NCBI RefSeq assembly: GCF_900110645.1
Contig: NZ_FOFB01000031.1
Location: forward strand, 1-64,000
DNA: 64,000 nt
Source: Neolewinella agarilytica
GTDB taxonomy: Bacteria > Bacteroidota > Bacteroidia > Chitinophagales > Saprospiraceae
Direction of reading: 5' to 3'
This document shows, one piece after another, positions 19,321-58,978 of the stretch. A program made the position numbers and the translations under genes. The notes below the pieces were generated by a model that was given only the letters and a program-made list of their open reading frames with translations, was not told the origin of the DNA and made no database searches. The stretch's first letter is position 1. Each line of letters starts with the position of its first letter.

Positions 19321-20472
19321 ATGATAGCCCAACAAGAAAAGATTAACTCCTGGCTGGCCTTAGGCCCCATCCTGTTCATCAACTTCCTCTTCGTCTGGAA
19401 GTATGGTAGCCGGGCGACGGATCGGGCAGTAGTGGCAGCCGCTTTACTGGTGGCCGTACAGGTGGGCTGGGTCTTGCTTTCTGACAGCATAAGCGTCAGT
19501 GATAAGTGGACAGGCCGGATAGTGATTGCTGCCGGACTACTGCTGCTGGTCTTTGCCGCGCTTGCCGCCTGGGTCATCCCATTGGAAAGCCTGAATGTAG
19601 ACCGTTGGAGTGTTATCTCCTCTTTTTGGGAGGCAGCCGCGGAAGGAAAATACCCTTACTTCGCTGAGTCGCATATGGGGAACCCGCCGGGGCCGATGCC
19701 TGTATACTTTGTCATCGCCTGGCCTTTCTACGCGCTGGGTGCGCTGGACACACTGGCGGCCGTGGGCTATTTGTTGCTCCTTTTTGGATTGTACCGGACT
19801 CCGGCAAAGGCAAAGAGGCTGGTTCCGCTACTATTGACCAGTGTTTTCATGTTTTGGGAGATTGCGGTGCGGAGTAATATTTTCACCTATTCGGTATTGG
19901 TGATGTTTGCGCTGGAGTATTTCCGCAGGCGGCAGGATAAGGCGTGGGGAACTAACCTTATGCTACAGGCGATCGTGATCGGCTTATTGCTGTCTACCCG
20001 CTCCGTATTCGCGTTGGCTTACGTAAGCTATTTTTTAGCCAGTCTGAAGTTGAAGGAAATGCCCTTTGGACGAATGGTCGCTTTTGGAAGTGTGGCTTTG
20101 GTCGCTTTTGGCTTGTCCTTCCTTCCCTTCGTACTTATCTGGCCGGAATCCTTCCGGGAAATGAATCCCTTCCTCGTGCAGTCGTCTTTCCTGCTACCTG
20201 CCTGGTTTATCCCGGGCTTTTTCGGATTAGCCGCAGCGTCGGCTCTGCTAATCAAACGATCAGAAGACGTACCGCTGGCCGCTGGCTGGGTGCTGTTTTT
20301 GTGTATCCTCCTGTACGCGATCTTCCACGTGTTGACTTCTGGCTTCGAGGAGGCATTTTTCGGAAGTAAGGTGGATCTGTCTTACTTCTTGCTGGCTGTG
20401 CCGTTTTTATACGGTACCGCCGGGTTAGGTATGCTGCTGCCTACGGCGATAAGCCGGCGATCGGGCATGTAG
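19321..20472 (+). CDS. Polytopic membrane protein (possible GT-C type glycosyltransferase)
   Basis: About 383 residues with roughly ten hydrophobic segments (for example ALGPILFINFLFVW, AAALLVAVQVGWVLL, IVIAAGLLLLVFAALAAWVI). A soluble loop after the third helix, SLNVDRWSVISSFWEAAAEGKYPY then MGNPPGPMPVYFVIAWP, resembles the first external loop of mannosyltransferase-like GT-C proteins, with an Asp in NVDRW. No family can be named firmly. The ATG at 19321 is chosen because a GTG at 19240 would translate the twin-hairpin repeat. It ends at the start of a family-3 hairpin. Confidence 0.7.
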   Translation: MIAQQEKINSWLALGPILFINFLFVWKYGSRATDRAVVAAALLVAVQVGWVLLSDSISVSDKWTGRIVIAAGLLLLVFAALAAWVIPLESLNVDRWSVISSFWEAAAEGKYPYFAESHMGNPPGPMPVYFVIAWPFYALGALDTLAAVGYLLLLFGLYRTPAKAKRLVPLLLTSVFMFWEIAVRSNIFTYSVLVMFALEYFRRRQDKAWGTNLMLQAIVIGLLLSTRSVFALAYVSYFLASLKLKEMPFGRMVAFGSVALVAFGLSFLPFVLIWPESFREMNPFLVQSSFLLPAWFIPGFFGLAAASALLIKRSEDVPLAAGWVLFLCILLYAIFHVLTSGFEEAFFGSKVDLSYFLLAVPFLYGTAGLGMLLPTAISRRSGM

Positions 20473-20510
20473 GGACCTCGAAGCGTCCTGTAAGGACCTT
20501 CGAGCGTCCC
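20472..20510. repeat. Family-3 hairpin element
   Basis: Arms GGGACCTCGAAGCGTCC and GGACCTTCGAGCGTCCC around TGTAA. It lies between two convergent genes, beginning at the last base of one stop codon. Related hairpins: 34323-34368 and 58202-58248. Confidence 0.7.
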
Positions 20511-34175: not shown

Positions 34176-34300
34176 CGCTGTTGTATTGTTAGCACTGCGC
34201 ATGCCGGCAATCGGCTGTAGCTGATGCCACAGTAGTCGCGGCTTCAGCGGCTGACTGGTGCCACGGTCAAATACCAGGATAATCGCTATGCTTCCCAAGT

Positions 34301-34420
34301 GCAATCGCAAGCTTGGGTAACGCGGACGCTCGAAGGTCCCGCAATACTGCGGGACGCTTCGAGGTCCGCTTTGCCTTGCTTAAGGGACCTTTAGCGTCTT
34401 GGCGGAGAGCTTGCAATTGC
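34301..34420. repeat. Nested inverted repeat with family-3 hairpin
   Basis: Outer arms GCAATCGCAAGCT (34301-34313) and AGCTTGCAATTGC (34408-34420) differ at one position. Inside is the family-3 hairpin (34323-34368), arms CGGACGCTCGAAGGTCCCGCA-type around ATAC. A further GGGACCTTTAGCGTC fragment follows at 34384. Confidence 0.65.
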
Positions 34421-34720
34421 CCTGTATGCTTCCCCCGTTGCCCATGGGCATTGCGGTCCTGGTGGTTAACATGCTGCTGGTATACCGTGGAGTAGCGGGT
34501 AAGGGAAAGACGGAGTCCGTAAAATAGGTTCTAAGCATAGGGTGTACTCTGTGTCTGGTCTGAGGCACGCCAGGTTTTGACTACAAACGCGGAGTGTTTT
34601 CATAAGCCCCTGCCCGCGGGGAGTGGGATTTCTACCGGTAAATAGCGTCAAATAAGTGACATGAACTTCAGCCCACACACGGATCAGTCTGGTTTTTAAT
34701 ACATATAATTCTCACGTAAA

Positions 34721-57700: not shown

Positions 57701-58101
57701 TAATTGCCAAGACCCCACAGTACCGGCTGGAGACTATGGCCACCTCCGTATTCCAGCTCGTGGACGGAAAGTGGCTACGGGAAGGGCTGCCCGTTGCGGC
57801 ACAATTCTCTCCAGCACAGGCTATCCAATCAGCCGATTTCAACAAAGATGGGTTAATGGATCTGTTGCTGGTCGGTAATGACTACGGCACCCAGGTGGAA
57901 ACCGGTCGTATGGATGCCGGCAACGGTACACTATTGCTGAACGACGGCCAGGGTGGCTGGCTCAGCCCCGCCAACATTGACCACGGCTTCTGGGCGAGCC
58001 TGGACGCCAGAAATCTGTTGCCCGTACAATTAGCTGATGGCAAAACAGCCTGGGTCATTGCTAATAATAACGGACCGGCGGCGCTCTATTTACAGGAGTA
58101 G
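54727..58101 (+). CDS. CRTAC1-type FG-GAP/VCBS lipoprotein with UnbV domain
   Basis: 1124 residues. Signal peptide and lipobox (FLFLLLTSCGQDD). Two propeller regions of FG-GAP/VCBS repeats carry Ca-binding loops of the DxDxDGxxD type: DFDQDGLPDLFF, DINADGYPDVYL, DYDGDGDLDCYQ, DLDQDGDLDLIV, DINGDGLEDLFF, DYDADGDLDLVV and others. Between them (about 535-620) is an ASPIC/UnbV domain (RELYPVRGFLGAVEPILHFG, RLEVRWPDGKTQVL). Such proteins are abundant on Bacteroidota surfaces and probably bind ligands or partners; an enzymatic role is not shown. A family-1 element encodes AGADAGAK just after the UnbV domain. Confidence 0.88.
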   Translation: MSHFRVLACFLFLLLTSCGQDDPMTGKGKTAGDARAADKLFELTDPSATGIEFVNEITNDFSFNYTTYAYIFNGAGVGVIDFDQDGLPDLFFVSNQGANKLYRNQGDWTFEDVSSSAGIEAPGGFTNGVSIVDINADGYPDVYLSRTGIDNSPEGRAGRRNLLFINQKNGTFTEKAEAYGLNSDRPAIQATFFDYDGDGDLDCYQLNAPLDFASVNTIRATQNPDGSLSRVMGPKEDFESDQLFRNDGGKFTDVSLAAGINNRSFGLSAAIHDFNADGRPDIYVANDYIEPDNLYINQGDGTFRDEASSYFRHTSHSSMGTDIADVNNDGLADVLTLDMLAEDPVRQKSLENGMRADRYNTLTRIGYGHQFMRNQLQLNNGKGYGFSDVGELTGIAATDWSWAPLLADYDNDQNVDLFVSNGFRYDVGDLDFISFTTDSLEATGGINPKRFKTYKEYLELIPSKPLPNYMYRNNGDLDFSEVTTKWQLDEASFSSSAVYADLDQDGDLDLIVGNHERPPFVYRNQGVETAQSGNWLEVLAEGPADNPAGIGLSVRVVAAGHQLVRELYPVRGFLGAVEPILHFGLGNADVVDRLEVRWPDGKTQVLNKVPGNQRLTIKYSDAGRQALAGADAGAKYFSYPADQRGLKFLHEENAFDDFNRQFLQPRMLSREGPALAAGDINGDGLEDLFFGGALGKPAAFFTQRSNGAFQEMTNPFPAKHANLEDVAALFFDADGDGDEDLYVASGGNAPPDQSAYYLDRLYLNVNGQLEYSQKSLPALLSSTGSVAAIDYDADGDLDLVVGGRTVPGRYPESPQSYLLENNGGTFTDVTATAFPDLTNAGMVTAIATGDLDGDDRAEIVIAGEWMPVTVYSSQDGVFRPAANTPRQSSGSWHSLLIKDLDGDGQAEIVAGNEGLNSRFKPTADRPVILYAGDFDDNGAIDPIVTMMDKSGRMVPLATKAQMIKQLPGLRKKFLRARAYARADVNELFGADVIAKTPQYRLETMATSVFQLVDGKWLREGLPVAAQFSPAQAIQSADFNKDGLMDLLLVGNDYGTQVETGRMDAGNGTLLLNDGQGGWLSPANIDHGFWASLDARNLLPVQLADGKTAWVIANNNGPAALYLQE
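56610..56628 (-). repeat. Family-1 element inside the CRTAC1 gene
   Basis: GGGCGCGGACGCAGGTGCA, read in frame as AGADAGAK between the UnbV domain and the second propeller. Confidence 0.8.
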
Positions 58102-58110
58102 GTTGGTTGG

Positions 58111-58316
58111 CAGGGCTAACGCATACTCGAAGCCGGACCCTCACCGCGAAGCAGCCCCGAAGGGAAAGGAACATTTTATCCTTCGCTCCGCTACGGAAAA
58201 TGCACACTTCGAGGTCCTAAATTGGCAGTCTAGGACCTCGAAGTGTGCTCAGCCATGGAGCCAGAGGCGAAATTGCTGAGTTCCTTTGAGCGTACGGTGA
58301 GTATGCGTTAGCCCTG
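58111..58316. mobile_element. MITE-like nested palindromic element
   Basis: Terminal inverted repeats CAGGGCTAACGCATACTC (58111-58128) and GAGTATGCGTTAGCCCTG (58299-58316) are perfect over 18 bp. A central perfect 18-bp hairpin lies at 58202-58219 / 58231-58248 (GCACACTTCGAGGTCCTA and its complement), related to family 3. The flanks GGTTGGTTGG (58101-58110) and GGTTAGTTGG (58318-58327) may be an imperfect target duplication. No reading frame is inside. The 206-bp size and structure suit a non-autonomous transposable element, but no transposase partner is in the window. Confidence 0.6.
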
Positions 58317-58372
58317 AGGTTAGTTGGTATGGCGAATCAGGAACCACTTAGCTCTTGATTCGCCTTACTAAA

Positions 58373-58978
58373 CTACTTCGGAAACTCAATTTCTCCCTCC
58401 CCGTTTAATCGGGCGGTAACGCAGAGCTGGGTGCCAATGTCTTCCCGCTGCCTTCTGGCCACGGTGTAGCTGCTGGCCCGTAAGACGTCGGAACGGATTT
58501 TGCCAAAACGTACGGGCAGCTCCAAGGCGCCGGGGCCCATGGCACAGCAACTGACCAATGGGGCTTCGAGGTCTTCACACAGCCGGTAGCAGAAGCTGTC
58601 GTGGGCAAGTCGTACGGCTACTTCTCCGTTGTGGTCAATCATCCGCAGGGGAACTTTTTTGCCCGCCGGAACGAGCAGCGTGACCGGCCTTTTGTGGTAC
58701 TCCAGTAGAATGTCCAGACGAGGGGGAATTTCCGGGCACCACTGTTTCAGGGTGTCAGCGTCAGAGAAGATCAACTCCGGGCGGTTGTGGGGGCTTGCGG
58801 GGCAAGCACTCAGTAATCGGTCCACCGCAGCTGGCTGGTGGATGTGCGCTACCAGGCGCCACAAGTTAGCAGTAGGTAATAGCACCAGCCCACCTTGGTG
58901 TAAAGTGGATAGTGCACGGGAGCCGAGCGGCGGCAACGGATGGTGCATCTCGGGTAACGGGTTAGTCCTTAATATCAT
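58373..58978 (-). CDS. YrdC/Sua5-like protein with degenerate active site
   Basis: About 201 residues resembling the YrdC domain that makes threonylcarbamoyl-AMP for tRNA t6A. Similar elements: LHQGGLVLLPTANLWRLVA (normally GG...PTDT.YGL), HKRPVTLLVPA (PGP.T), VAVRLAHDSFCYRLCEDLEA (VGVR.P) and APLVSCCAMGPG in place of the usual P(L/I)V.TSAN.SG. The key Asn and the Thr-Asp-Thr motif are not present, so it may be an inactive paralog or have another substrate. ATG 58978 is preferred; a second Met follows ten residues later. Confidence 0.65.
   Translation of the reverse strand: MILRTNPLPEMHHPLPPLGSRALSTLHQGGLVLLPTANLWRLVAHIHQPAAVDRLLSACPASPHNRPELIFSDADTLKQWCPEIPPRLDILLEYHKRPVTLLVPAGKKVPLRMIDHNGEVAVRLAHDSFCYRLCEDLEAPLVSCCAMGPGALELPVRFGKIRSDVLRASSYTVARRQREDIGTQLCVTARLNGEGEIEFPK

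Follow-up and report, generated by a model that had tools for sequence, protein, structure and literature searches.

Is the 206-bp segment at positions 58111-58316 of the window, the whole 64,000-nt stretch of Neolewinella agarilytica DNA analysed here, a mobile element, and if so, which system moved it and what is its palindromic interior? Working from the letters alone, the initial annotation had described a MITE-like element with perfect 18-bp terminal inverted repeats (TIRs), a central 18-bp hairpin and an interior devoid of a reading frame. The anatomy bore this out (Table 1). The two arms of the TIR (CAGGGCTAACGCATACTC) were complementary throughout, the central palindrome disclosed 23-nt arms at 91% in which the 18 outer pairs were perfect, and no open reading frame of at least 100 aa overlapped the element. 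Near-identical flanking repeats, one base apart, were present as described; their length of 10 bp had to be corrected to 11 bp with one mismatch. Comparison of the flanks at 10, 11, and 12 bp gave 6, 1, and 7 mismatches, respectively, and because the 11-bp repeat abuts the element on both sides, the extra right-hand base is part of the duplication.

Table 1. Positions in the window of the focal element, its parts and related hairpin loci.
Feature	Coordinates	Strand	Evidence
Left copy of the 11-bp target-site duplication, AGGTTGGTTGG	58100..58110	+	sequence; 1 mismatch at 11 bp
Left terminal inverted repeat, ISAs1-type	58111..58128	+	perfect complementarity with the right arm
Palindromic core, P1 to P1'	58133..58297	+	model R1 match, 137.8 bits, E 2e-31 (this core is one of the 21 training rows of R1); alignment A1
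P1 left arm	58133..58172	+	alignment A1; interrupted at 58143-58164 by a 22-bp insertion
P2 hairpin of the core	58172..58202	+	alignment, pair counts
P3 central hairpin	58202..58248	+	18 perfect pairs, 58202-58219 / 58231-58248
P4 hairpin of the core	58248..58280	+	alignment, pair counts
P1 right arm	58280..58297	+	alignment, pair counts
Right terminal inverted repeat	58299..58316	-	18-bp arm, 100% complementary to the left
Right copy of the target-site duplication, AGGTTAGTTGG	58317..58327	+	sequence; duplication comparison
Second ISAs1-type MITE, 128 bp	34297..34424	.	TIRs AAGTGCAATCGCAAGCTT / CAGGGCAATTGCAAGCTC, 11/14; holds the 34323 hairpin
Bare hairpin pair of the same 16-mer family	20473..20509	+	no TIR with duplication in the scan

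Genomic copies and an empty site

To the left of the element, a gene encoding FG-GAP and ASPIC/UnbV domains comes to its end at 58101; the final two letters of its stop codon (TAG, 58099-58101) also form part of the left duplication. The right neighbour is a convergent gene of the Sua5/YrdC family with its frame end at 58373. A 19-nt imperfect hairpin (84%) at 58324-58371 adjoins the right duplication and is possibly a native terminator between the two convergent genes.

To look for further copies of the 18-bp ends, as had been proposed, we searched the genome of the window (G000; 6.22 Mb in 74 contigs), which gave 57 TIR matches at up to 3 mismatches versus 3 in the reversed control. A DNA search returned 65 matches, many of them partial or the same place on the second strand, and 12 copies were exactly 206 bp long, with pairwise differences of 3.8 on average and 11 at most. 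An 11-bp duplication at 0-1 mismatch flanked 9 of these 12; as for the remaining three, the fit was to 10 bp in L008 and to 12 bp in L011, and no duplication was seen in L007. Neighbouring genes were called on both sides for 11 of the 12 copies, and each such copy lies between its neighbours. When the flanks were joined, stop-to-stop frames of at least 90 codons crossed the site in 6 of the 12, and in the context test of this genome none of the longest frames kept contained the element.

The sister genome G009 supplied the empty site that had been asked for. It holds the same gene pair with a single copy of the target, reading GGAGTAGAGCGATTGGTAGTATG, and no element. The ortholog of the neighbour gene is 93% identical, and 72 unaligned bases separate the pair in G009 versus 264 in the window. 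Since the intergenic sequence of G009 has diverged beyond the target, this comparison, which covered the window locus only, provides one clear empty site that is not base-perfect. With genomic copies, an empty site and an IS family with such ends (see below) all found, neither of the observations that the initial annotation had named as counting against its reading (no other genomic copy of the ends, no empty site in relatives) was made. Other copies, target duplications, the empty site and the IS family agree in this respect: the 206-bp element is a genuine MITE of an ordinary kind that moved in the past.

ISAs1-type ends without a partner in the assembly

The suggestion to look for an IS sharing the 18-bp ends led to ISAs1 elements in a cyanobacterium (G101) that match 17 of the 18 end bases. 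The exact TIR was looked for in 84,980 species, each represented by a single genome and the window's own genome possibly excluded, and three stretches came out, two from Acidobacteriaceae and one from Oscillatoriales. The two Acidobacteriaceae matches were rejected as chance, with no second end at up to 4 mismatches in either contig; the match in L126 lies inside a coding frame, and L127 has nearly the same sequence. The Oscillatoriales stretch, L128, carries a 153-bp MITE whose TIRs are almost identical and which is flanked by 10-bp repeats. In the genome of L128 (G060), the TIR pattern had 63 matches at up to 3 mismatches versus 2 in the control, and a TIR pattern with one A/T position and no mismatch was matched in 6 of 100 genomes drawn from the same order. 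One of these six, G101, has three full-length 1213-bp elements bearing the TIR CAGGGCAAACGCATACTC/A. All three are flanked by 10-bp duplications, and their protein contains the ISAs1 domains PF13808 and PF01609.

The MITE at 6103-6255 of L128 and those at further G060 loci combine nearly the same TIR with a different interior, several of them with GC-rich hairpins. In the four Oscillatoriales/G060 MITEs tested, model R2 (described below) detected no core.

ISAs1 elements with related ends were also identified in the same genus (G011, TAGGGCAAACGCATCAAA) and in the same family (G183, CAGGGCAAACTCATACTTTT; G028, CAGGGAAAACGCATCAA). The E. coli H-rpt around yhhI starts with CAGGG and ends with CCCTG, in agreement, by eye, with the focal ends. 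Duplications made by ISAs1 elements are 8-10 bp long; those observed here measured 9 bp in G011, 11 bp in G028, and 10 bp in G101, compared with 11 bp at the focal element, and the difference from G011 and G101 counts against the assignment. Also against it stands a 1149-bp element with ISAs1-type ends in G073 (L164, 1501-2649), which encloses the IS630-type pieces PF01710 and PF13358 and showed no matching duplication. Over 30 bp, the ends of L164 are identical to those of the ISAs1 in G101, so that a nested IS630 insertion, which is our guess, seems likelier than another mover.

The ISAs1 transposase profile NF033564 gave no match in the 74-contig assembly of the window's genome, and an autonomous partner with exactly the focal TIR was not found. 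Given the 74 contigs, such a partner could be missing from the assembly. Three PF01609 transposases of this genome were considered as partners and rejected, as their flanks do not share the focal TIR by eye. One of them, L070, which we take to be IS4-like, contains PF01609 only and has an 11-bp direct repeat (AACAAAGCACC) with other ends. The match of the focal ends to the ISAs1 of G101 and the lack of ISAs1 matches in the assembly together mark the element as one with ISAs1-type ends that is an orphan in this assembly.

Several focal-element copies at contig ends adjoin IS110-like sequence at the same place in the element, namely those on the contigs of L055 (C62:70691-70810), L031 (C15), L045 (C40), L013 (C72), and L014 (C33). 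On three contigs, the first 28 bp of the element's right end are followed by sequence 79% like that before the IS110 gene L058 (domains PF01548 and PF02371); on two, the first ~180 bases are kept before the sequences depart, with CT at the junction. These stretches lack IS bodies. We rejected the idea that the contig-end copies represent the missing autonomous IS, as the sequence beyond 28 bp is the 79% IS110-upstream-like one. IS110 seems to use the focal MITE as a landing site.

As for the mechanism, an ISAs1 DDE transposase would have bound both 18-bp ends in trans and either cut the element out or copied it. Joining of the element to staggered target cuts, followed by fill-in, would then have left the 11-bp duplications. 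No ISAs1 transposase was found in the assembly, and the MITE family is therefore probably immobile in this genome now.

Folds of the palindromic core and its hairpin relatives

Cores were extracted from the window's genome and from related genomes, with 6 of the 35 segments tried giving none. Of the 29 obtained, 21 cores from G000, G009, G007, G004, and G019 make up alignment A1, which omits the near-identical L002, L008, L011, L016, and L017, L083 (near-identical to L233), and L020 and L027 for their uncertain start. Alignment A2 (14 rows) is A1 minus L218, L220, L075, L076, L080, L090, and L093. The core spans 142 model positions, and its ends are paired in the cloverleaf described next.

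A cloverleaf of P1 to P4 paired 92.2% of the cells in A1, with two-sided change in 24 of 52 pairs, compared with 32-46% paired in slid structures. None of 500 shuffles was as high on paired cells and two-sided changes, a result to be read with the caveat that related sequences can beat all shuffles without structure, and the number of further pair types was equalled by 22 of the 500. RNAalifold proposed an alternative of two side-by-side hairpins, in which 94.0% was paired and 19 of 42 pairs showed two-sided change. The two folds are mutually exclusive. The four 16-mer arms of the core are related to one another, and the halves P1-P2-P3 and P3'-P4-P1' resemble, by eye, inverted copies of each other, so that we read the core as two ~70-nt hairpin units joined as an inverted dimer.

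These relations bear on how the pairing came to be kept. Within hairpins, template switching uses one arm to correct the other, and such a process could mimic compensatory change; for this reason we do not claim selection on the fold. We give nearly an even chance to the view that mutation of this kind, rather than selection, kept the arms complementary. The kinship of all four 16-mer arms and the equal pairing of both folds are consistent with it, as is the occurrence of an insertion on either arm when L024 is compared with the window copy, while P2 and P4, which still pair though their sequences differ, argue weakly against it. The insertion in question is the 22-bp one of P1, which is absent from the shorter copies L015 and L016. 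It sits on the left arm in the 206-bp copies and, inverted, on the right arm in L024, as if the two arms exchanged sequence.

Could the core instead be a functional structured RNA or an RNA-level regulator (a terminator, an RNase III site or an mRNA stabiliser) whose fold is under selection as RNA? The two-sided changes in many pairs, unmatched in 500 shuffles, and the position of the window copy directly behind a stop codon would fit such a role. Folding of the minus strand of the element as RNA was also strong (z -9.05). The plus strand as DNA gave z -9.14, and 0 of 200 dinucleotide shuffles were as good in either case. We nevertheless regard this explanation as unlikely. Rfam 15 families gave no match at gathering score in the window, and 12 loci gave a single chance-level match (mir-486, with an E of 0.25 and a score under its gathering threshold). 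The cores are accommodated equally well by two folds that exclude each other, and a terminator scan found 1 match compared with a shuffle mean of 0.7, which is not above chance. Nor is there a clear preference for gene ends: the 12 copies in the window's genome show no clear bias (tandem 5, convergent 4, divergent 2, uncalled 1), and 10 loci of G019 at 9 distinct sites were divergent at 5, convergent at 1, and tandem at 2; at the ninth site, one locus was called tandem and the other fell within a frame.

The central hairpin belongs to a larger family. With up to 3 mismatches allowed, its 16-mer was matched at 4 places in the window (0.61 expected; 0 of 100 shuffles reached 4), and across the genome GGACCTYSRAGCGTCC occurred 84 times exactly and 160 times at up to 1 mismatch, with none in the reversed control. 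Thirty of the 84 exact matches were listed and fell at 24 distinct sites. Among these listed sites, an ISAs1-type TIR stood on both sides of the hairpin at 9, on one side at 5, and on neither at 10; the 14 sites with a TIR compare with 1 of 144 control positions. Many of the hairpins thus lie in sister MITEs and are not pieces of the 206-bp element. The likeness to the hairpins at 20472 and 34323 that had been noted earlier is real, as all belong to the same 16-mer family. The further proposal that such solo hairpins are decayed or partial copies survives only in part, the family being larger, with many members in sister MITEs that have TIRs of their own and 10 of the 24 sites without a TIR. 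The 34323 hairpin, for example, sits in a second MITE whose 10-bp duplication, TATGCTTCCC, is perfect (34287-34296 and 34425-34434), and for the 20472 hairpin the scan found no TIR with a duplication. A strict solo-hairpin score was dropped, as it picked 3 of 24 sites and 3 of 72 control chimeras. On contig C34, at about 121.4 kb (L123), units of the 16-mer hairpin form a cluster of several in tandem.

Abundant, bulged and often paired hairpins also recall REP/REPIN units, which depend on a RAYT (Y1 transposase) for movement, and Y1 transposase matches occurred in 20 of 21 genus genomes, with 5 in the window's own. We consider a RAYT very improbable as the mover and rejected it, given that hairpins of the G000 type are not adjacent to Y1 transposase genes and that target duplications are seen. 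None of the 30 RAYT loci listed had the G000 16-mer (0-1 mismatch) within about 1.5 kb, by a pattern tuned to G000 that variants of other species could escape, and four of the five G000 RAYT regions lacked it at 0-1 mismatch, one having a hairpin cluster about 2 kb off.

A repeat with ends GTGTGTATCACGAAATGCAC was observed in the flanks of several focal-MITE copies (L003, L005, L010, and L017). The target GGGGCCGGGGG is common to 5 of the 12 copies (in L005 on the other strand), and the targets of L011 and L012 are near variants of it. Spread by duplication of larger segments, such as the nested GTGTGTATCACGAAATGCAC repeat, rather than by the element's own transposition is a very improbable account: L003, L005, and L010 do share flanking repeat sequence and five copies the same target 11-mer, but the window copy, L004, L008, and L009 stand in different targets with duplications of their own, and the site in G009 is empty.

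The same core between unrelated ends in sister species

Beyond the window's genome, the core was followed with two recognition models. Model R1 had matches in 13 of 21 genus genomes, the window's own included, and in 0 of 39 others (60 genomes in all), in a genome search with stricter filters by which weak matches may be lost. Counted on both strands, there were at least 52 matches each in G000 and G019, at least 51 in G013, and at least 49 in G002. The training rows of R1 included four from G019 and one from G004, with none from G002, G013, G014, or G005. Model R2 was built solely from 14 cores of G000, G009, and G007 and tested on 26 of 51 fetched core loci and 8 controls. It recovered all 23 test cores of G019, G002, G013, G004, G014, and G005 (weakest E 2.6e-10), which had been chosen because R1 found them, as well as 3 of 3 further G000 cores and none of the 8 control loci.

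The ends around this core, classified together with the duplications at 50 of the 51 fetched loci, differ between species. In G019, ends of the type CAYACTACTGGACATTTTC were present on both sides in 19 of 20 copies and on one side in the other, and duplications measured 9 bp in 16 copies, 7 bp in one, and 11 bp in one, with none in two. In G002, ends of the type AACGTGAGGTTTG lay on both sides in 6 of 10 copies and on one side in 3, and duplications of 7-8 bp were found in 4 and none in 6. Four of five G004 copies had the G019 end type, two on both sides and two on one side; the fifth (L336) was enclosed in a repeat whose ends read GTGTGTATAACGAGATGCAC, and only here among the five was a duplication found (9 bp). 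ISAs1-type ends accompanied 3 of 4 fetched cores of G009 and 1 of 2 of G007, and two of the four G009 copies had duplications of 10 and 12 bp, the other two none. The scan found no duplication in both G013 copies, the single G014 and G005 copies, the five G000 copies and both G007 copies, and the five further G000 cores (L340-L344) showed no recognised TIR pair. The L336 core of G004 was also observed to be enclosed by a GTGTGTATCACGAAATGCAC-ended repeat with the 9-bp duplication.

Controls support this classification. On 1000 loci with shuffled flanks, the ISAs1 pattern matched 6, the G019 type 1, and the G002 type 27; cross-matches among real loci were limited to the ISAs1 pattern at 1 of 20 G019 and 1 of 5 G000 loci and the G002 pattern at 1 of 5 G004 loci. 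An earlier chimera control (0 of 54) had used at least 8 bp, stricter than the observed scan, and was repeated at at least 7 bp. Same-genome chimeras then had a duplication in 7 of 380 cases for G019 versus 18 of 20 observed, in 0 of 90 for G002 versus 4 of 10, and in 0 of 20 for G004 and 0 of 12 for G009.

Hence, the same core stands between unrelated ends in sister species. The length of the duplication is set by the transposase, and the differing lengths therefore suggest that at least three transposition systems moved the same core, with putative movers behind the G019 and G002 ends. It is highly probable that the focal element is a non-autonomous, orphan ISAs1-type MITE with the genus-wide palindromic core as its interior. 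Uptake of the core, as a passenger, by several MITE systems would be the most likely account of its different ends, and folding of the core could possibly bring the flanking ends close together and so aid uptake. A stronger version remains tentative and rather doubtful in our view. It holds that the core is a transposase-independent, selected folding module, repeatedly taken up by unrelated DDE transposon ends (an ISAs1-type class with 10-11-bp duplications, a 9-bp class and a 7-8-bp class) and improving each as a MITE, for example by a cruciform that pulls the ends together.

The usual view of a MITE is that of a deletion derivative of a single IS, and on that view the interior ought to go with the ends. 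In this genus, a single folded interior is common to three end classes, a natural experiment on whether the folding of DNA within a MITE, in addition to its ends, decides which short elements spread. In titles and abstract openings, drawn mostly from outside the subscription literature, we met no description of a MITE core common to several TIR classes or of this family.

Among known systems, Tn3-type TIMEs have 5-bp duplications and TIRs of about 38 bp, and the focal element, with its 18-bp TIR and 11-bp duplication, was rejected as one of them. It resembles ISAs1-family MITEs of type II, the term that PMC3542288 uses for MITEs lacking a matching IS in the same genome: it is short and non-coding, has 18-bp TIRs starting with CAGGGC and target duplications, and is present in many copies. 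Unlike ISAs1-family MITEs, it has an 11-bp duplication and a genus-wide structured core that also occurs between other ends. PMC3733652 reports CGTC-tagged REPs and dimers of them from five phyla, Bacteroidetes included; these share with our elements palindromic repeats, inverted dimers and the lack of an adjacent dedicated transposase. As characterised there, they have 8-9 bp stems and an unpaired CGTC tag, unlike the ~70-nt units with long bulged stems described here, of which many copies carry TIRs and target duplications; likewise, the core has neither the unpaired GTAG or CGTC tag nor the 20-40 bp unit by which REPs/REPINs are recognised there (PMC3733652). Correia/NEMIS and ERIC elements, as outlined in PMC10969869, resemble it as strongly folding intergenic MITEs, whereas our copies show no clear bias to transcript ends and their core is common to different TIR classes. 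Finally, the IS110 family in REP targets, as presented in PMC11208160, is similar in that IS110-upstream-like sequence adjoins several focal copies with a CT junction; unlike a mover, IS110 would insert into the focal element.
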